Below are positions 1,300 to 52,200 of a stretch of DNA of 64,000 nucleotides, in pieces; the first letter of the stretch is position 1, and the number at the start of each line of letters is the position of its first letter. The DNA lies in the NCBI GenBank assembly GCA_964019135.1, contig OZ025256.1, positions 2,294,001-2,358,000 of the forward strand. The letters are read 5' to 3'. Source of the stretch: Arenicola marina (lineage: Eukaryota > Annelida > Polychaeta > Arenicolidae). Position numbers and translations under genes: made by a program. The notes under the pieces are model-generated. The model saw only the letters and a program-made list of their open reading frames with translations, was not told where the DNA came from and made no database searches.

Positions 1300-3110
1300 T
1301 CCTCCTTATCCAAGCTCTCCACCCGGCGGCCTCTGTGCGACCACCCTCTTCCCATCTTCCCTTCCTTCTCTCCTCTTCCTCCCCTTTCCAGCCTCCCATT
1401 CCCCGCCTTCTCTTCCCTTCCTTCCCATCCTGGCCTCCTCTTCTCTGCCGCCTCTTCCCTGCTTACTTTTTCCATGCTTACTTCTTCCATGCCTCCTCTT
1501 TCCTTGCATTCTTCTCTTTCCAGTCTGTATTTACTCATTTGCCGGTCATCTGTCCATCTTCCCTGCCTGTTATCCATTTCTCCTTTCCTCTTCCTCCCCT
1601 TCCCTGCCCCCTCTTCCCTGTTACCTCGTAAATGCTTACTGATCCCTGCCTCCTTTTTTAGTGCATCCTTCTTTTCCCAGCCTCTTATTTCTTAATTTAC
1701 CCCCTGGTCCATCCAACTTTCCTAACTCTTCTCCCCTACCTATATTTCCCTTTCTTCCTTTCTAGTGACTAGTGCAGTGCACATTCTATTCCTCCCCTTC
1801 CCTGGCTCCTCTTCCCTGCCGCCTTGCATCCTTCTCTTCTCAGCCTGCTACTTCTTCACTTACCCGTTTGTTCATCTTTCCTGCCTCTGCTTTTCATTTC
1901 ATTCTCTTTCTTGCCTCCTCCTCCCGGCCTCCACTTCCCTGCCTTCTCTTCCCTGTTACCTCTTCCCTGCTTACTTTTCCCTACCTCCTCTTTTATTGCA
2001 CCCTTCTCTTCCTAGCCTGCTGTTTATACATTTCCCCGTCTGTCCATCTTTTCTGCCGCTTCTTCCCTACCTCCCTTTCCAATCCTTCTCTTCCTTTCCT
2101 CCACTTCCCTCCAAGCTCATCTTCCCGCCACCGTCTTCTCTCTATCCTTCTCCCTCCTTCCTCTTTCCTCCCTCTTCTTTCGCGCCTTTCATGCTTGTTC
2201 TCCATATCTTGTCCATGGACCTATCTGCCCAGAGTACCACTGCACACCACACCCTTCCCTCTCTACTCTTCTATCGCTCCTCTTCCCTCCCGCATCTTCC
2301 CTTTCTCTTGTCGCCTGTTTCCTCTTCTCTGTCCCCTCTTCTCAGCCTCCTCTTCCCGCCCTATTCTTCACTTCCTCCTCTTCCCGCCTTCCTCATCCCG
2401 CCATCCTATTCCCTCCTTCCTTCTCGATCCCTTCTCTTCCCTCAATCCTCTTCCGCGCCTCCACTTCCCTGTTTTTTCTCCATGTATTTTCCATGGACCC
2501 ATTTGCCCAGAGTACCATTACACACATTTGTTTGCCCACACTTCTCCCTGCCATCTCTATCCTTTTACCCTTCTCTCCCTCTCCTCCGCCCCGCAACCTT
2601 TTCTGACCCTCATCTTCCCGGCCTCCTCTTCCCGCCATCCTCTTCCCTCTCTCCTCTTTCCTCTCCCCTTTCCCTTCCCTCCTCTTCTCTCCCTTCTCAT
2701 CCCGCCATCCTCTTCTCTTCCTCCTTCTCGCACCCTCCTCTTTCCTTCCTCCTTCTCGATTCTTTCTGTTCCTTCCCTCCTCTTCCGCGTCTTCTCTTCC
2801 CTGTTTGTTCTTCAGGCCTTTTCCATGTTCCCATCTGTCCAGAGTACCACATTTCTTTCCCACACTCGTCTCCGCCATCTCCTCCCTCTTTACCCTTCCC
2901 TCTCTCTCCTCTCGTGTCTCCTCTTTTCTGTCCCCTCTTCTCAGCCTCATCTTCCTGGCCGCATCTTCTCTCTCGCCTCTTCCCTCCCTCCTCTTCCGCG
3001 CCTTCTCTTCCCTGCTGTTTCTCCATGTCTTGTCCATTGACCCATCTGCCCAGAGTACCATTGCCCATCACCGCTGCATATCCTCTTCACTACAGCGAGT
3101 CGTTGATCTC
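1300..3110. repeat. Polypyrimidine (C/T) satellite with longer-period units
   Basis: Nearly all bases on the plus strand are C or T for about 1.8 kb, built from degenerate CCTCTTCCC-type words. A distinctive purine-containing phrase, TCCATGGACCCATCTGCCC followed by AGAGTACCA, recurs near 2210, 2490, 2825 and 3035. This implies a higher-order unit of roughly 200-330 bp in the right half. The long open frames on both strands are a by-product of the composition. The tract could form triplex (H-DNA) structures; that is inference. Confidence 0.85.
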
Positions 3111-5984
3111 CCCTAGGCGTCCAGAAGTCACTAGCATTCTACTCGTGTAGCAAGCCACGCGGAGGACAAAGGGATCGTTGGCTGTGAGGTAATTAATACA
3201 CCCAAGGCGACCTACCGGTATTCTGTATTCACGCCACTGTGACGTCTGCGTGAAGAATGGGGCGGCACAAAAACTGATTCCCAGTCAAACATAAAACTCC
3301 ACCACACGGGAAGGACGCTATATTTACCGACGTAGATGTCTCACTGACACGCCCAAACGCCCCCCCCCCCCCCCCACCATTCATCCACCCGCACCCCGAC
3401 CCCGGGAAAGGAGAGAATACAAAGCTGGTGCTTAAGGCAACTGCAAAAAAGGCAAAAGTAGGCGAAACTGGGCGAAGAAACCTCCAATGGCTATGACATT
3501 AGAGTGCGAACCCATTACCGAAGGATCTGCATCTCAGCCTTCTTACCCATGGAGCTAGAATTTTTAAATAATTGAAAGCAACCTAGATTTCAAGTTATTA
3601 CAACACAGGTTTTGAAGTGGAGTAGAGTGGTTACGTCTGTTGCAACAGAGAAGGCGCCTTTGTCTGATCTATCGAACCCTCCTCCGCAAAACTTGTGGAA
3701 ATAGTAACTGTAAGTTGTAATTAAGACCTGTATCTCAGGATTTTAAGTATGGATATCATCTACCGTATGTATGCTTACTATGTGTTGCTTAATAAAACTG
3801 GCGGACGCATTATAATGATATTCTATAATTATGTGAGACTATATTTCAACACAGTTTTTTGTTACAAAATAACATTTCCTCGGCTTATATCGCTATAGTT
3901 CTATAGAATTGAAAAGGTATATAGAGCGAGCTAGAGCTACCCGAAACACGCACCTGCCAGAATGTCCCCTGAAACAGTCTATTAATTTAAGCAATGTAGA
4001 ATTTAAAAATTAAGTTGTAATTATATCAAACCTTGGTTCTTATTATATCAAACCTTGGGTGTAATTATATCAATCCTTTTTGGTATTTGTATAATATTCC
4101 CGATGTAAAATGTATGACGTGTTTTCATAAAACATAGTTGAACCTTTTATTTCATCCCTGTTATGGACAGTTAAAGCAATATACTTACATGCGCCATCTT
4201 AGATTTTTTACATTTTAGAATCAAGACTAAAAGTACCTCAACATTTATGATGCATATGTTTTATATCTCTGAGAGTCTGTAAAACAAACATTTCAACATA
4301 AAACTCCGCGGTTTATTCATATCGCGCGCGGACGTGATAGCGAGTCGCGGTCGACATGACAGACAAAATAGCAAACTGCGAACAGGCGCGTAGGAATATA
4401 AAGCCGGCCACCAGCTTCTGCTCCGTTGACCAAAATGCTTCTCTCCAGATAACCACAGTAGAGGCTTTCAGGATTTAAATTCAAGACAGAATGTACTTAT
4501 TTAACATGGAGGAGAGGTTGGTAATACAAAAAATTACGGAATATATTGCTTTAACAATAAGCATTAAGTTCATGTCCCATATCCCAGGCCCTTTGTATGT
4601 GGCGATTTTAACACGCCCATTATTTCGCAGTTCCATGTCTATTAGTTCTTCTTTTTGAGACCCTCTTTGGTTTCAAGGAACCGGCATGATTTAGACGAGA
4701 TAATAGCCAGTATTTTTGTTCGTGTGGACGGACCCCAAGGAGGCGACAACCGTCTAGGATATTGTTTGCCTTCCAAGAACCGAAAGCCATTACGTTAATA
4801 AATGCAATAACATGCACTGAGGTGCATGTACAAGAACATCAGTTCGGAAGAAACATACAGAAGATTAATCACTTTCCGGCATATAACACAATGCAATAGA
4901 TACATGAAAACACAGGAAGTCACGTGGTCTCGATGCGGCAACGTCTTTCATTTGTATGTCCTATGTTGACCAACGAGTTGGAGTATATTCGCTAAATTAA
5001 AGCACGGAAAACGGTAGCGTCGAGTATTTTATTTTTTAACAATTTTAACAAGGTATCGGTTCTGCTCATTTACGCAGTCCTTTTTCCACGTCAGGGTCTT
5101 TCAAATGGACTATTATATCAAATGCACAACGCGATAAATACGTTAGCTATCGTGAAACAAGGGGCTTACCGAATCGATCTACGGGGAGTAAGAACTTTAG
5201 ATATATCAGTTTCTTCTTTATCAGGATAATGCACTGATTTATCGGTTATTTGTAAATTAACGCACACTTACCTTCATAAAACACGGCTAGGTTTGAAATA
5301 AAGAATTTGGTTAATTCGTATACAAAATGAACATAATGAAAAGGCGTGACGTCACACAATTGTGTAACTAATAATTAATATATCGTTAATCTATTTTGCA
5401 AATAAAGTACAAGTCTGAACAAGCTAAATCATTTTATGCAGTAAGTTTATCCACGCTATATTAACAACAAAGGCCGAACTATGAGTTTTGCATCTGCGCA
5501 ATCTAGTAATGGGGTCCGTCCATATACTAAGGACCACTATGTAAGTATACATGGTCATCTGCAGGGCGAATGGCATTGTGAATGCAGTCTTAACGATATT
5601 TGTCAACACTTTTTATTAGCCATTGTTGTTTTCTTTCGTCTATTAGGTCGTATTTGTATACGCCCTGAACTGTGTGAGAAACGAAGTGTTATCGATGGCT
5701 GAATATATCAAATGTTTATCAAATGTTATCAGATATATATAAGCTTATATACATATATGGCAGTTTTTTCTTTCGTCGTTTTCCATTTACAAACCCATTC
5801 TTATTCCGTATTTTAGTCATATTCAAATTCTTAATTTTCATCGTTACCAGCCCTATTTTCGTTAGAGGGCGCTCCATATGGTTTACCATTACTTTCCATT
5901 CGTTGGCCCATTGTTTCATCTCCCTTTTCATTGGTCAATGTCCCATACTCTCTTTGCGAAACCGGCAACCCCGCGCGGATTATG
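3111..5984. other. Intergenic, AT-rich, no supported gene
   Basis: A C homopolymer lies at about 3360-3376. The word TTATATCAA is repeated three times in tandem at about 4018-4072. Near 4397 GGAATATAAAGCCGGCC resembles a TATA box with downstream GC, but it is followed only by a five-codon reading frame. No exon-like coding sequence was recognised. Confidence 0.5.
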
Positions 5985-40266: not shown

Positions 40267-43200
40267 TCAAGTCGTCGTCACCCCCTCCCCAGTCCTCGTC
40301 CCTGCGGACTCCAGCTGTCTGCCGAGATACTCCCTGCAATGAAATAAGTAACAGCGATACAAAACAAGTACATATATGTATGAATGAATAAACAAAACAA
40401 GTACATATATGTATGAATGAATTACAAAACAAGTAAAAACATGAATGAATGAATTACAAAACATTTGCAAAACAAACAAATAAGTTATATTCCATTTGTG
40501 GACGAGTGGAGACTCCCCGTCAATGCCGCCATTACTTTACGCCCACTCACCAGTTGTGAACCATGAGTTTCTGCACGGCCAGCAGCGCCTCGTAGCGGAC
40601 GTTGGGGTCATCGTGTGAGAGGTGCTGCATCACCAGCTGCTTGCCGTTTAGCTGCTCGATAACGCTACAAGCGACAGAGAGAGAAAGAGACGTCACGTGA
40701 TTGTTACGCCGCTTCTGATTGGTCGACAAAGATGTGAAAACAATTATACGTGTAGCAATGACATGTACGCATACGCAATACGGGAAATTACCCTTATGGC
40801 TTATTTATTACTTAACCACCGTTATCTTATATTAAAGACTAGCTACAGTATTAACTTGATATTGAGATATCATAGAGTGAAAGAGAAAAACACAGAAATG
40901 GAGCAGTGGGAATCGAACCCGCGATTTAAGTCATTATAACCGCGGACGGCAGATGTTTAAGGCGAATGAGAATGAGAAACCAATATGGCCGACTTCGAAC
41001 AACTTTAGAGACCCTTTCCGCTTTCCGGTTGTTTCTGGCTACCTATGCTACCTATGCTATATAATAACAGTGCATATATATATTGGCATCCAATTGGGGT
41101 ATACCTTTTATATATGTATTAGAATACTGCTCCTGGAAGAAAGCTATCAGAGTTACACAAAGCTACATCAACTGAACTCAAATGTGTGTGCTACTCAGTT
41201 GTGTTAATATCACTAATTACTTACTAGCACCATATAAATGAGCCTATTATGGGTCAGGTGACAGGTCACTCACTGTTTGCCCCTTGGATAGTGTCTGACG
41301 TACTCTCCTATGTCATGAGCGGCCACGGACAGTATCAAGGGGTCCTTGTTGGACTCCAACAGGCGGACTAGAATCCTGCAATGACGTCATTCAGTAAGCA
41401 CTGATATTCTGCTTAACTGTACAAGACATAATACATGTATCATCTGACTAATGGGGAAGTCATTTACACTCAGCTCTATACATTTCATCACATGAAAGTT
41501 AATCCATATCTTTATTCAGGAACATCCATTTCATATAATACCAGTAAAAGTTAGTTTATTTTAAAACATTTTTAATCAATAACCGTTCAATTAACGGAGC
41601 AAAACTGAAAACTTTTCTTCATAAACATCCATCAATGTAGTATATTAAATACATTATTTCCATACTAATTAACCTATATTTAGCCAAACTGTTTCTTCCG
41701 TGGAAATAATTTAATTCCAAACATTCCAAATGGAGCTTGGGAAATCTAAGTCGCAATGCGATAACAACGACATACTTCAGCAGCTCATAGTTCTTCTCAT
41801 TGAGTCTGGAGGCGTTTTCCCTCCAGAACTTCTCGGATTTGTGAACAGGACTCCACTCCAGACGGCCGGACTTCACCTCCGTCGAGTACTCGTCAAAGGA
41901 ACTGGAACGAAACAATCCAAACGCAGGTGTCTTTGGCAATGTTTGTGCACACATGGAATAAGTCAGACAATATGCACATCCTCAAATCATGAAGTGAAAC
42001 GCGTGCGCCCAAAAGCCCAGATACGGTATGCAGAATTTCCATTCAGGGAAATACAAACTTTTTTTATCACTAAGTAGATATGACATCAGCACAAAGACCT
42101 CAGATCAAGCACATTGACCTTATCCGAATATACAAATCTCAGCTCCGCCACGCTCACAATGCACTGGCCTTAGTATGAGCACACTGACCATAAACACGAT
42201 ACATTAAACTGGCCTAGTTTAATAGTCCTTCAACTGACCTATGTTCCAGCACACCGGCGTTAAATTTAATACATTGACATTGCACTGACCTTAAATCCAG
42301 CACACTGACATTAAACTTATCTTAAACGCATCACAATGAACTTACACTGACCCAGTTCCAGCACGCTGACCTTACACTGACCTCAGATCCAGCACACTGA
42401 CCTCACACTGGCCTTAGATCCAGCACACTGACCTCACACTGGCCTTAAATCAAGCACACTGACCTCACTCTGGTCTTAGATCCCGCACACTGGCCTTACA
42501 GTGACCTTAGATCCAGCACACTGACCTTACAGTGACCTTAGATCCAGCACACTGACCTCACACTGGCCTTAGATCCAGCACACTGACCTTACACTGGCCT
42601 AAGATCCAGCATACTGACCTTAAAGTGACCTTAGATCCAGCACACTGACCTCACACTGGCCTTAGATCCAGCCCACTGACCTTTACTGACCTTAGATCCA
42701 GCACACTGACCTTATAGTGACATTAGATCCAGCACATCGACCGTATATCCAGCACCATGACCTTACACTGACCTTTGATCCAGCACATTGGCCTTAGATG
42801 TCCTCAATGGCGTAAAACCTAAAGTGACACGCAAATTCAGTTGCCCTTAGATCCAGCACCATGACCTTTTATTGACCTTATCCAGCACCATAACCTTACA
42901 CTGACCTTTGATCCAGCACACTGGCATTAGATCCAGCACCATCATCTTACACTGATATTAGATCCAGCATACTGACCTTACACTGACCTTGGATCCAGCA
43001 CACCGACCTCACACTGACCTTAGATCCAGCACACTGGCCTTACACTGACTTTAGATCAAGCACACTGACCTTACACTACCATTAGATCGAGCACACTGAC
43101 CTTACAAGGACCTTAAATCCAGCATACTGACTTTACACTGACTTTAGATCCAGCACCATGACCTTACACTGACCTTAGATCCAGCACACTGACCTTAGAT

Positions 43201-46200
43201 CCAGCACACTGACTTTACACTGACCTTAGATCAAGTACACTGACCTTACACTGACCTTACAGTACCATTAGATAGAGCACACTGACCTTACACAGACCTT
43301 ATATCCAGCACGCTGACCTCTCACTGACCTCACACTGGCCTTAGATCCAGCACACTGACTTTACACTGACTTTAGATCCAGCACCATGACCTTACACTGA
43401 CCTTAGATCCAGCACACTGACCTTAGATCCAGCACACTGACTTTACACTGACCTTAGATCCAGCACCATGACCTTACACTGACCTTAGATCCAGCACACT
43501 GACCTTAGATCCAGCACACTGACTTTACACTGACCTTAGATCCAGCACCATGACCTTACACTGACCTTAGATCCAGCACACTGACCTTAGATCCAGCACA
43601 CTGACTTTACACTGACCTTAGATCCAGCACCATGACCTTACACTGACCTTAGATCCAGCACCATGACCTTACACTGACCTAAGATCCAGCACACTGACCT
43701 TAGATCCAGCACACTGACTTTACACTGACTTTAGATCCAGCACCATGACCTTACACTGACCTTAGATCCAGCACACTGACCTTAGATCCAGCACACTGAC
43801 TTTACACTGACTTTAGATCCAGCACCATGACCTTACACTGACCTAAGATCCAGCACACTGACCTTAGATCCAGCACACTGACTTTACACTGACTTTAGAT
43901 CCAGCACCATGACCTTACACTGACCTAAGATCCAGCACACTGACCTTAGATCCAGCACACTGACTTTACACTGACTTTAGATCCAGCACCATGACCTTAC
44001 ACTGACCTTAGATCCAGCACACTGGCCTGGAGCTTTTCGTTGAGGAACTCGATGTCCTCCGTGATGTCGTCGTCATCAAACCTGCGTCCCTCCAGGAGCT
44101 GCAGTTGTTTGAGGACCTTACACTGGACCATGGAGAGCGAGTTTTCAGTGATCGTCTCACGCTCCAGAGGCTTCTCCAGCAAGTTCTGAAACACAGGAGT
44201 CATGGTCAGCGCTGGCCGAGACTGCCTCAGCCCTGGCCGAGACTGGCTCAGCGCTGGCCGAGACTGGCTCAGCGCTGGCCGAGACTGGCTCAGCGCTGGC
44301 CGAGACTGCCTCAGCGCTGGCCGAGACTGCCTCAGCGCTGGCTGACACTGCCTCAGCGCTGGCCGAGACTGCCTCAGCCCTGGCCGAGCCTGGCTCAGCG
44401 CTGGCCGAGACTGCCTCAGCGCTGGCCGAGACTGCCTCAGCGCTGGCCGAGACTTCCTCAGCGCTGGCCGAGACTGGCTCAGCGCTGGCCGAGACTGCCT
44501 CAGCGCTGGCCGAGACTGCCTCAGCGCTGGCTGACACTGCCTCAGCGCTGGCCGAGACTGCCTCAGCCCTGGCCGAGCCTGGCTCAGCGCTGGCCGAGCC
44601 TGCCTCAGCGCTGGCCGAGACTGCCTCAGCCCTGGCCGAGACTGGCTCAGCGCTGGCCGAGACTGGCTCAGCGCTGGCCGAGACTGCCTAAGCGCTGGCC
44701 GAGACTGGCTCAGCCCTGGCCGAGCCTGGCTCAGCGCTGGCCGAGACTGCCTCAGCGCTGGCCGAGCCTGGCTCAGCGCTGGCCGAGACTGGCTCAGCGC
44801 TGGCCGAGACTGCCTCAGCGCTGGCCGAGACTGCCTCAGCGCTGGCTGAGACTGCCTCAGCGCTGGCTGACACTGCCTCAGCGCTGGCCGAGACTGACTT
44901 CGGTTACCTTTCACCGGGGTCGATTGGTTGTATATTCCGGACGCTTTAACCATTTTTCTGGTCTGGTTTTCTAAAATTAATAGCTATTCAAGTGTACTTC
45001 ATTGTGTACAGCCGTTAATCGTTCATGGTTGGTTGGTTATCCAGGACGCTTTATCCTGCGACCACACAGACATGGCCACAGCGGGGCGCGAACCACCGAT
45101 CTACGTGCTGTTAGGCTCTCAGGTGACCAGAGCACTCAACGCGAGCGCTCGAACCCACTGAGCTACCGGGCCGGCCGTCACCAGGGTCAATGTGGAGCAA
45201 GACTTAGAAAATTTCTTAGGATTTGCTTTCGCTATTAAACAGTATCGGTTCACCCTCTCTCCGGGAGTAACTCCTGACTCTCTGTGAAGCAATACATGGG
45301 GTCGTTAGCCTGCACAAACATAGACATAGCCAGATAGGCTGATCTAGCGGAACCCACTGACCGCTACCTAACAGGCCACAGGTTGAGTGACCCCTCTACT
45401 ACATGCCCCAAGCAGTTCCGTATAAACACTAAAATACAAACCCTGAGGGTGGCCAGAATGATGCGAATGACCTTTTCCTTGATGGATTCGCTCAGGATGT
45501 CAGACAGGATGGGAATCAAGTTGTATCTGCAAACGTGGACGGAACACACATCTATGAACAAAATTTGTGTTTTGCACCACTTTTGTGCACACAAAAGGGC
45601 TAAAAAAACTTGGCCAAAGAACCTTCCGGGACGTTAGATGATGAATGGATGAAATATGCCCCATATTAGGTGCCCAAGCCAGATTTTTTTTTTTTTTTTT
45701 TTAATCGCTGGACATACTGATCAGCGGTCTAGTGTTCTAACCACTACACCATGGAGCCCCCTCGTCCACCATAAGACATTTTGGCTTACTCATTAGATAG
45801 AATAAGATTGACAACTAGCAGGATGCACATACGGGAATCCGGATCCACGGATCCCACTATTTACGTTACCTTCCCAGTGTCAAATTCCCTAAATCCCTTG
45901 GAAAACTGGTGCCATAGCGGCAGTTTACCCACCCCGCGCCCCCCAAACACAGCCCCCTTGGTTTTACAGTACAGAATTGTAAACGTGGTACACATATTAA
46001 CATCTAAAAAAAACGGTAAGCAGTGTAGCACGTATCAAACAGTCTATATATGTATATAAATATATTAATATCATATATGTAATATGTATAAATGTATTAA
46101 TATAATATATGTAATATGTATAAATGTATTAATATAATATATGTAATATGTATAAATATATTAATATAATATATGTAATATGTATAAATGTATTAATATA

Positions 46201-49200: not shown

Positions 49201-52200
49201 CCTAGTTGCCATCCATCCTGCTGCATCACAACCAAGGCCTCGCAGCATATCTTGTTGTAATTGAATTACACCCATTTAGTTTGCGACCATAAATGTTCTT
49301 ATGACACCAAGGCCTCGCAACATATCTTGTTGTAGTTGAATTACACCAAGGCCTCGCAACATATCTTGTTGCAGTTGAATTACACCAAGGCTGCGCAACT
49401 TATCTTGTAATTGAATTACATCCATGTATTTTTGCGACCATTGTTCTCATGACACCAAGGCTTCGCAACTTATCTTGTTGTAATTGAATTACACCCATTT
49501 AGTTTGCGACCATAAATGTTCTCATGACACCAAGGATTCGCAACATCTTGTTGTAATTGAATTACACCCATTTAGCTTGCGACCATAAATGTTCTCATGA
49601 CACCAAGGCCTCGCAACATATCTTGTTGTAATTAAATTACACCCATTCATTACAAATCCAGACAATCAGTCCTGGTAGCGGCGTCCGGATTACTGGACCG
49701 GATTACTAGACCGGATTACTGGACCGGATGAACTCACCTGATTCACAATAAATGGATCTGGTCTGTTCAACATGTTGAGAAATGGACCCCATACAGATTC
49801 TTTGTTCTTCCGGGAGTATTCCTTAAAGATTTCTACACGGCTTTTGTCCTCCTACAAAATACAATATATGAATAGTTAACACAGTTGACGCAGTGGGGAA
49901 GGAAGGTCCGGCGTGGGAGGGGGTGGGGGGCGGGGTAGGTGTCTCCATAAATATAAAACCTTCTGTCAGTAGTATTGTTTTCTATCTGTCATAATCATGA
50001 ATAAATACTGTCAGCTATCATGGTGGTAAGGATGCATTCTATTAAATAACTCACACATAGAATATATATCATATGTATCATATTAAACAGCTCACCTGCA
50101 AAATATCATCTATCATGGTGAGGATATACTGCACAGTCTGATCCTTCGAGATATGACCCATCAGACTTACAAAGGTCCTGGCACACTGTAAATGATGGCA
50201 TGGTAATTACAATAATAAAGTTTTTATATATAAAAGTATATAATTGTAACAGAGAAGCAACAATACAGAATAAAAGAAAACAGGATGTTAATGTTCTCGA
50301 TCAGATCTGTCAGACTCTTGGCTGAACTGAGAAACCAGAATGTTCAGTAGATGTGTATGGTACTCATGAACCAAAGCAATCATTGAATAAAACTATGATC
50401 ATATCAAAACCGAATACCAACATTTGGGAAGCACTTCTCTTCTTATCATATGTCAGTACTAACTGAAGCCAGTTCTTCATATGGCTGGACAGACTGGCAT
50501 TACCTGGTATGGTTTTTCCTTTAGTAATTGTGATCTCTGTTCAGCTGTGGCATTGTCTAGCTTCGTAATAAAATTAAAGTCCTCTTGGGAAATCATTTGT
50601 CCCCTGTAAAAATAATATAGAAGACATATAGTATAGGTGGGAAAGAGGTGACGTACAAACATTACAGTTAAATTTAGTTAGCACATAACCATTCTCCTTT
50701 TACTTGTCCAAAAATAAGTTCTATCATGCAAAAGGGCCATCATTGTTGTAATAAGATGACAACTCCTGGTTTATATACTGGATGTTTATTCGGAGCTGTC
50801 AGTCGAAGAAGTGAGACAGAGGCCTGGCTGACATGTGGCACATCAGATAGATATTCATACGTAATCGACGTTAAGAAAATAGTGCCAATGAATATTCATA
50901 TTACATCAATTGTCTTGTATATTAGGTATACTTACTGCAGATAAGACTGCCAGTTAACCCGGTTGACTCGCACATCATTTGCTTTCTGCTGTAATGGACT
51001 TGTAGCCACAAAAACACCTGAAATAAAAATATATTAATTATTTATTTACCGGTATATGTAATTATTAAAGCTTGATCAATAACGATTATTTTAAGCATAA
51101 CTATCCAATCAATATTTAATAACAAAAAACTGCCAAATGTTATACTACCAGATACTAAACTTAAAATCTTTTACTACCAGTAGATAACCTTTTTGTTGAT
51201 CAAGTATCAGTACTATGGCTGAAGCATTTAAGTGGGGTGGGGGGCAAAAGGAGGGTAGGGGTCAGGCTGGGTGCCAAGCCGGGTAGATTAATCTGGCGAT
51301 TGGTGTCACTTGTATTTGGGTTGTTGGGTGCTTCTTTGTTTCTGGCTGGGGTGTATAGGTTATTAACTACTCTATACTGACCAATATTGTACTTATAGAG
51401 CTTTTTTTTCACTCAACTTTAGGAATCTTCATCCACCCCATAATGGGTATAGATTACTCAGCCCCCAGTACTGTGCATTGATAACAGAGCAATTTGCATA
51501 TGGTACAAACTCTGCTTTAGCATTTTTTAGTGGTATTTGCAAATAGCCTGAACTCTCCTTTAGTATTTTTGCAAATCTTCACGCTACCCATACTTATGAT
51601 ATTTCGTACCTACCTAGGTCGCTAGGTACCACTGCATATCATTTTTGAATGAGTATATCCCTGAACGTAGCAATTTCTGCAACTCAAGTTTGTATAAACC
51701 TCTTCCTCACAAGGAAGTATTAACAGTCTGTTAATTGACAAATTTCTATGTGGAAACCTTTTTCCATTTGTTTATAAATGTAAATAAAAAAGTAAATGAA
51801 ATAACCATTTCCAGAAGGTGTTTTTCTGGAAAGCGTTATTTCATCTTGTGTCCTAACCCATCAGAGAATTAGTCTGGAAGAAACTGCGCTGTTACATAAT
51901 ATTAAAACAGATATTAAACACTATTATATAAAACTGTTTCTAGTTGTATTCTATTCTACTTCTATTTAGTAACCTTCGTACATTGCGAAGGAAACTGGCC
52001 ATATGCTTATAGACTGAATACCGACTGCAATAACTCATATGTACGCTGAGCTAGAGTAAAAACTGAAACATAGTATCAGTATTAACATACATATCAGGAT
52101 GCATATCAGTGGGGCTGAAATGTAGTGCAATAACTGCTTATTAATTCGCTCTAACACTTCTATGCAAAAATATAACCAAAAGCAACCTGGTATTGACATA

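Follow-up and report, generated by a model that had tools for sequence, protein, structure and literature searches.

Introduction

How is an intron removed when the end of the preceding exon and its 5' splice site have been copied, over and over, into the intron itself? This question is raised by one intron of ATP6V1H, the gene for subunit H of the V-ATPase, in the annelid Arenicola marina, where a minisatellite begins at the splice junction and fills most of the intron. The window analyzed is the whole stretch of 64,000 nucleotides at positions 2,294,001 to 2,358,000 of contig OZ025256.1. With the human protein as query, ATP6V1H is found in it on the minus strand as 13 colinear coding segments, two of which are weak when taken alone (E 0.21 and 3.2), and a profile search of the 867-Mb assembly with PF03224 and PF11698 gives three matches for each family, every one of them in this gene.

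Most work on how one of several identical 5' splice sites is chosen has relied on engineered duplications. In ATP6V1H, a conserved housekeeping gene, the donor 9-mer is accompanied by 35 natural exact copies. The feature is real and belongs to an already described kind, here in an annelid and with identical decoys in large number. Judging from the sequence, the array is probably a "mirage", meaning a minisatellite that arose across a splice junction, expanded and was tolerated, and it is most likely without function. It most likely belongs to a large population of minisatellites in this annelid genome, a part of which also arose at junctions.

A minisatellite that starts at a splice junction

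The exon in question (44185-44007), numbered 10 in the first-pass annotation and the ninth of the 13 segments located here, ends in GTGCTGGATCTAAG, with the true donor GTCAGT adjoining; its terminal letters as read are GTGTGCTGGATCTAAG, and the following intron opens with GTCAGTGTAAGG. Alignment of the protein joined across 44007/41901 with mammalian subunit H (KLGESVQDLSSFDEY) is free of gaps, and the first donor (44007/44006) is therefore the conserved one, which confirms the proposal of the first-pass annotation that the first unit of the array is the real exon-intron junction. The intron extends from 44006 to 41902 (2,105 nt), and the array occupies approximately 1.9 kb of it (Table 1).

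Rows from Tandem Repeats Finder (TRF) cover 42271-44028, and tiling of 42080-44026 yields 64 A units of 20 bp and 52 B units of 11 bp, with 114 bases unassigned; the earlier count of about 25 units by eye was thus too low. By eye, the B unit is the A unit minus 9 bp, a deletion type interleaved with A, and TRF reports an 82-bp period at 42845-43999, which represents a higher-order repeat. The exact 20-mer unit is present in 20 copies in the intron, rising to 40, 46, and 51 when up to one, two, and three substitutions are allowed, whereas 200 dinucleotide shuffles contained no copy even with up to one substitution. Tiled units differ from the consensus, from the exon outward, by 0.042, 0.057, 0.093, 0.105, and 0.195 edits per nt. 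Because divergence rises away from the exon, the exon-proximal end of the array is the youngest or the best homogenized.

The last 22 nt of the exon, AGGCCAGTGTGCTGGATCTAAG, recur exactly inside the array at 43040, the longest stretch common to the two, and the array unit includes codons of the conserved protein stretch SV.DLS. Because this 22-nt stretch encodes a conserved protein segment, the exon is the likelier source of the unit. Recurrence of the exon end together with the donor agrees with the earlier suggestion that the array was seeded from the junction, and the array has the characteristics of a mirage, namely tandem units of minisatellite length, a unit that spans the boundary, and AG/GT signals in many units. 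As a separate observation, an internal stretch of the same exon, CAGTGTAAGGTC (codons QCKV; 44114-44125), is by eye identical in context to the 11-bp unit, a match that may be due to chance.

A reasonable scheme for the formation of the array would start with tandem duplication of a short piece, made up of 14-22 nt from the exon end and the first part of the intron, placing a second junction within the intron. Slippage or unequal exchange would then have generated the approximately 116 units, mostly by exon-proximal growth; the polarity is visible in the array, and the mechanism is a proposal. The 11-bp deletion variant would have arisen and become interleaved with the 20-bp units during this expansion. 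Could the array instead be an assembly artifact, made by collapse or expansion errors? Tandem arrays are difficult to assemble, and the copy number is taken from the assembly alone; however, the graded divergence of the units, the intact exons on either side, and the occurrence of comparable arrays at several loci make such an origin extremely improbable.

Table 1. Features of the ATP6V1H junction (window positions) and arrays beside chaperonin exons (positions within each locus); the slash in a splice site marks the cut.
Feature	Position	Strand	Details and basis
ATP6V1H exon	44007..44185	-	Ninth coding segment found; protein homology
True 5' splice site AAG/GTCAGT	44001..44009	-	Junction between 44007 (exon) and 44006 (intron); first array unit
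Secondary donor-like site AGT/GTAAGG	43995..44003	-	Position weight matrix score 1.66; sequence read
In-frame TAA	43997..43999	-	Intron +8 to +10; reached from later donors tested
Junction-spanning minisatellite	42080..44006	-	20-bp A units GTGTGCTGGATCTAAGGTCA and 11-bp B units GTGTAAGGTCA; TRF, tiling
Non-array rest of intron, including acceptor	41902..42079	-	Sequence read
Next ATP6V1H exon	41775..41901	-	Acceptor CAG/TTCCTTTGACG, first base 41901; protein homology
L077 donor-side array	1576-2838		29-bp unit, 40 copies; TRF
L068 donor-side array	1661-2283		55-bp unit, 11 copies; TRF
L059 donor-side array	1651-2211		82-bp unit, 6.6 copies; TRF
L073 exon, donor-side array	2615-3126		Unit approximately 65 bp, runs off locus
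L074, two exons, acceptor-side arrays	490-1061 and 1361-1527		Unit 34 bp (4.9 copies) in one array and 68 bp (7 copies, true acceptor included) in the other

Decoy donors and the in-frame stop

Donors were scored with a position weight matrix (PWM) based on human donors and with the U1 duplex energy. The true donor has a PWM score of 4.44 and a U1 duplex energy of -6.0 kcal/mol. It is weaker than some other ATP6V1H donors, for example CAG/GTGAGT at 8.31, and its GTCAGT fits GTYAGK, the donor consensus given for earthworm metallothionein genes (PMC12783039). None of the 304 intronic GT sites outscores it, and the top score is tied among 36 sites including the true one. These are the 36 copies of AAG/GTCAGT, so that 35 exact 9-mer decoys accompany the true donor, in accordance with the first-pass description of an array filled with donors like the real one. 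Donor choice therefore cannot rest on the 9-mer alone.

What would follow from the use of another copy? Among the 47 candidates scoring at least 3, the true donor alone avoids the stop, and all 46 downstream ones run into the TAA at the start of the intron. It had been suggested that inner donors would lengthen the protein or introduce stops: the stops are borne out, and useful lengthening is rejected because every one of these later candidates reaches the same TAA. At the secondary site AGT/GTAAGG, the cut would fall 6 nt past the true donor, ahead of the TAA and in the same frame, and would add two residues. Because the later candidates meet TAA, misuse of them would leave a countable RNA footprint. 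Tolerance of the array would be accounted for if the exon-proximal donor is taken, as it is transcribed first and lies beside the exon's own signals. Transcripts from later donors, with the TAA read three codons past the junction, would presumably undergo decay or give a truncated protein.

These properties might also suggest a poison switch, in which splicing at inner units would produce TAA-containing transcripts that are degraded, thereby tuning subunit H, with copy number setting the dose. Decoys identical to the true donor in their 9-mer and the common stop would suit such a device, and human IFI6 is reported to employ two downstream repeat units as donors (PMC4526556). However, the donor T is kept in 76% of the 46 full-length A units, the lowest value of the 20 columns, and therefore the copies show no sign of having been maintained as donors. 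Furthermore, amphioxus mirages are reported to leave regular splicing undisturbed (PMC3087553), and similar arrays beside chaperonin exons, described below, suggest a general process and not a gene-specific device. A poison switch is thus unlikely, and a tolerated array without function is the reading carried forward here.

Recurrence beside other exons

Is the ATP6V1H array an isolated case? The sample comprised 51 exons, namely 38 chaperonin exons (PF00118) and the 13 ATP6V1H segments; the chaperonin set consists of 30 loci and eight further matches inside them, that is, 38 of the 49 PF00118 matches, the other 11 being left out. An exon was counted when a 16-nt exonic stretch recurred, with up to two mismatches, at least three times within at most 1.5 kb, some flanks being shorter. 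Twelve minus-strand loci were read in reverse, with upstream and downstream flanks swapped and repeats on both sides counted all the same, and none of them passed. Junction-derived repeats were found for seven of the 51 exons, six chaperonin (6/38) and one ATP6V1H (1/13), the latter being the exon studied above, and in five of the seven the repeats lie downstream. The ATP6V1H array is not a one-off in this genome.

The arrays in L059, L068, L077, and L073 repeat the exon end plus the donor, and both arrays in L074 include exon sequence. Four of the six chaperonin cases sit in one gene on contig C17, which resembles CCT eta. In L058, a donor array contains only about 5 exonic nt and falls under the criterion. 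For decoys scoring within 1.5 of the true donor, the first in-frame stop comes ahead of all of them in L059, L068, and L077, and in L073 it comes after one of them.

Weighing the origin of the array

Several observations weigh against seeding from the junction as part of a recurrent process. Arrays with a similar unit are present on contigs C3 and C14; the L in the exon-end stretch SVLDLS, where mammals have Q, is encoded by CTG, the same CTG as in the array consensus; 11 of 2,532 mismatched pairs of exon and downstream flank also passed the criterion, in a control limited to downstream flanks and including two exons (in L084 and L081) with wrong boundaries; and the preference of arrays for junctions is weak once the C17 gene is removed, as detailed below.

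The first two of these would fit an inverse order of events, in which the array came first or came from elsewhere, such as from a dispersed minisatellite family, and the exon end was overwritten by gene conversion. The shared CTG makes array-to-exon conversion conceivable. The array on C3 (G000:C3:144363-149994, L022) has a 21-bp unit, extends over at least 5.6 kb, and has the 13-nt core AGGTCAGTGTGCT in common with the ATP6V1H array, and the 24-bp array on C14 has GTGCTGGATCTAAGG in common with it. However, both match the unit less well than does the exon junction, so that a search for a better consensus match at another locus, which had been named as a possible refutation, speaks for the junction. 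Across the assembly, all 20 matches of the exact 20-mer lie inside the ATP6V1H array, and the 15-mer core occurs at two loci, with 27 matches in this array and 11 in the C14 array; approximately 1.6 chance sites are expected by our own arithmetic, which puts two loci near chance. The similarity being a short core of this kind, a dispersed family was rejected as the source after the C3 and C14 arrays had been read. In addition, the exon end has kept the codons for the conserved SV.DLSS and its join is gap-free, and other arrays of this genome contain coding sequence from CCT exons. We therefore regard an array-first origin as very improbable and retain seeding from the exon-intron junction.

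Whether arrays prefer junctions is a separate matter. Arrays of at least three copies occur at approximately 0.26 per kb in the window and the loci, and at this density 1.2-1.5 junction-overlapping arrays are expected per 100 junctions. The Poisson probability of six or more is 0.001-0.005 at rates of 1.2-1.5 and 0.042 at a rate of 2.5, for cases that are not independent, four being in one gene. In a circular-shift test of the 30 loci, where ends of hidden Markov model matches stand in for junctions and hence L068 is missed and L058 counted, junction-overlapping arrays lie at 4 of 60 exon ends versus 1.1 expected (P 0.02); without the C17 gene the figures are 2 of 52 versus 0.76 (P 0.17). A strong preference was rejected on these grounds, and the excess of arrays at junctions is mild at most. 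High array density, combined with tolerance of repeats that spill into the intron, may be enough to explain the recurrence.

We put forward, tentatively and as somewhat less than an even chance, that splice junctions are frequent birthplaces of minisatellites, a sizeable fraction of introns beginning or ending with numerous copies of the adjacent exon edge and its splice site. If so, the spliceosome would routinely have to single out the outermost site among many near-identical ones, and this animal would constitute a natural experiment in the discrimination between competing identical splice sites. Should the chaperonin sample prove representative, such a choice could be examined at many junctions of one genome, on both the donor and the acceptor side.

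Neighboring arrays and other observations

A 21-bp array at 44206-44896 (TRF) lies upstream of exon 44185-44007, 20 bp separating its end from the acceptor, so that this exon, with the junction array at its donor, has a minisatellite next to each of its splice signals. The branch point may come from the edge of the 21-bp array (CTGAC, by eye); as a candidate second mirage this array was rejected, showing no likeness to the exon by eye. A 13/26-bp array at 49685-49743 lies at, or a few bases from, the donor AATCAG/GTGAGT of another ATP6V1H exon, with a weak resemblance to the junction seen by eye only, and a 32-bp array at 40358-40463 (TRF) stops approximately 23 bp short of the last ATP6V1H segment located, on its upstream side.

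Elsewhere in the assembly, kinase matches with in-frame TAG, most also with TAA, occur on contigs C443, C465, C504, C330, C652, C609, C497, C684, and C232, which may be contaminants from an organism with reassigned stops, for example a ciliate. The mitochondrial contig, 15,942 bp in length, shows long frames when read with code 5; the genes share a strand and follow the order nad4L-nad4-(rRNA region, inferred)-nad1-nad3-nad2-cox1-cox2-cox3-nad6-cob-atp6-nad5, with genes named by eye; we take this order to be the annelid pattern. A cephalochordate host, to which the literature on mirages had pointed, was set aside in view of this order. A search of the assembly for the GFP family gave no match, which is no proof, as its control also matched nowhere.

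Comparison with known systems

The first-pass annotation knew of no described gene with this exact arrangement, but amphioxus mirages (PMC3087553, PMC3902484) and human IFI6 (PMC4526556) are alike. In amphioxus, Adh3 and globin genes contain tandem repeats that extend across an exon-intron boundary, be it the 5' or the 3' one; many of the repeats include AG/GT signals, and they are reported to be unstable in length while leaving regular splicing intact (PMC3087553); TnC and PGBD5 were later added as mirage genes (PMC3902484). BflGb6 has units of 150-160 bp, six and three of them in two haplotypes, BflGb9 has units of 157 bp, and Adh3 has units of 10-72 bp. The likeness lies in the many units with splice signals and in the boundaries affected, 5' and 3' there and both sides in the worm genome. 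There are also differences: those reports concern cephalochordates, a taxon that is no part of the definition of a mirage, and the present one an annelid; in contrast to the long globin units, ATP6V1H has approximately 116 units of 20 and 11 bp with 36 identical donor 9-mers; and undisturbed splicing and length instability are reported for amphioxus, whereas the ATP6V1H array was read from the sequence of one assembly.

In the human IFI6 (6-16) minisatellite, use of the two downstream units as donors reportedly gives three mRNAs (PMC4526556, citing Turri et al., 1995). As in ATP6V1H, a tandem repeat lies at an exon end and its units are able to serve as donors, which in ATP6V1H is a prediction; inner units are reported to be used in human mRNA, whereas all later ATP6V1H candidates tested meet a stop. 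Internal tandem repeats in human segmental-duplication genes, some of them at exon-intron boundaries, have units of 30 bp and four repeats on average, and there too variation of a boundary minisatellite alters gene structure; however, they reside in primate-specific paralogues whose transcripts often retain the repeat (PMC2812944).

In the literature searched, mostly outside subscription papers, no annelid case of a junction-spanning minisatellite was found. The present array would extend mirages from lancelets into another phylum, and it would bear on the model, set out in the amphioxus study, that such repeats feed intron gain (PMC3087553). Set beside these systems, what is new here is the annelid host and the recurrence in the same genome, and the recurrence is the part worth following.

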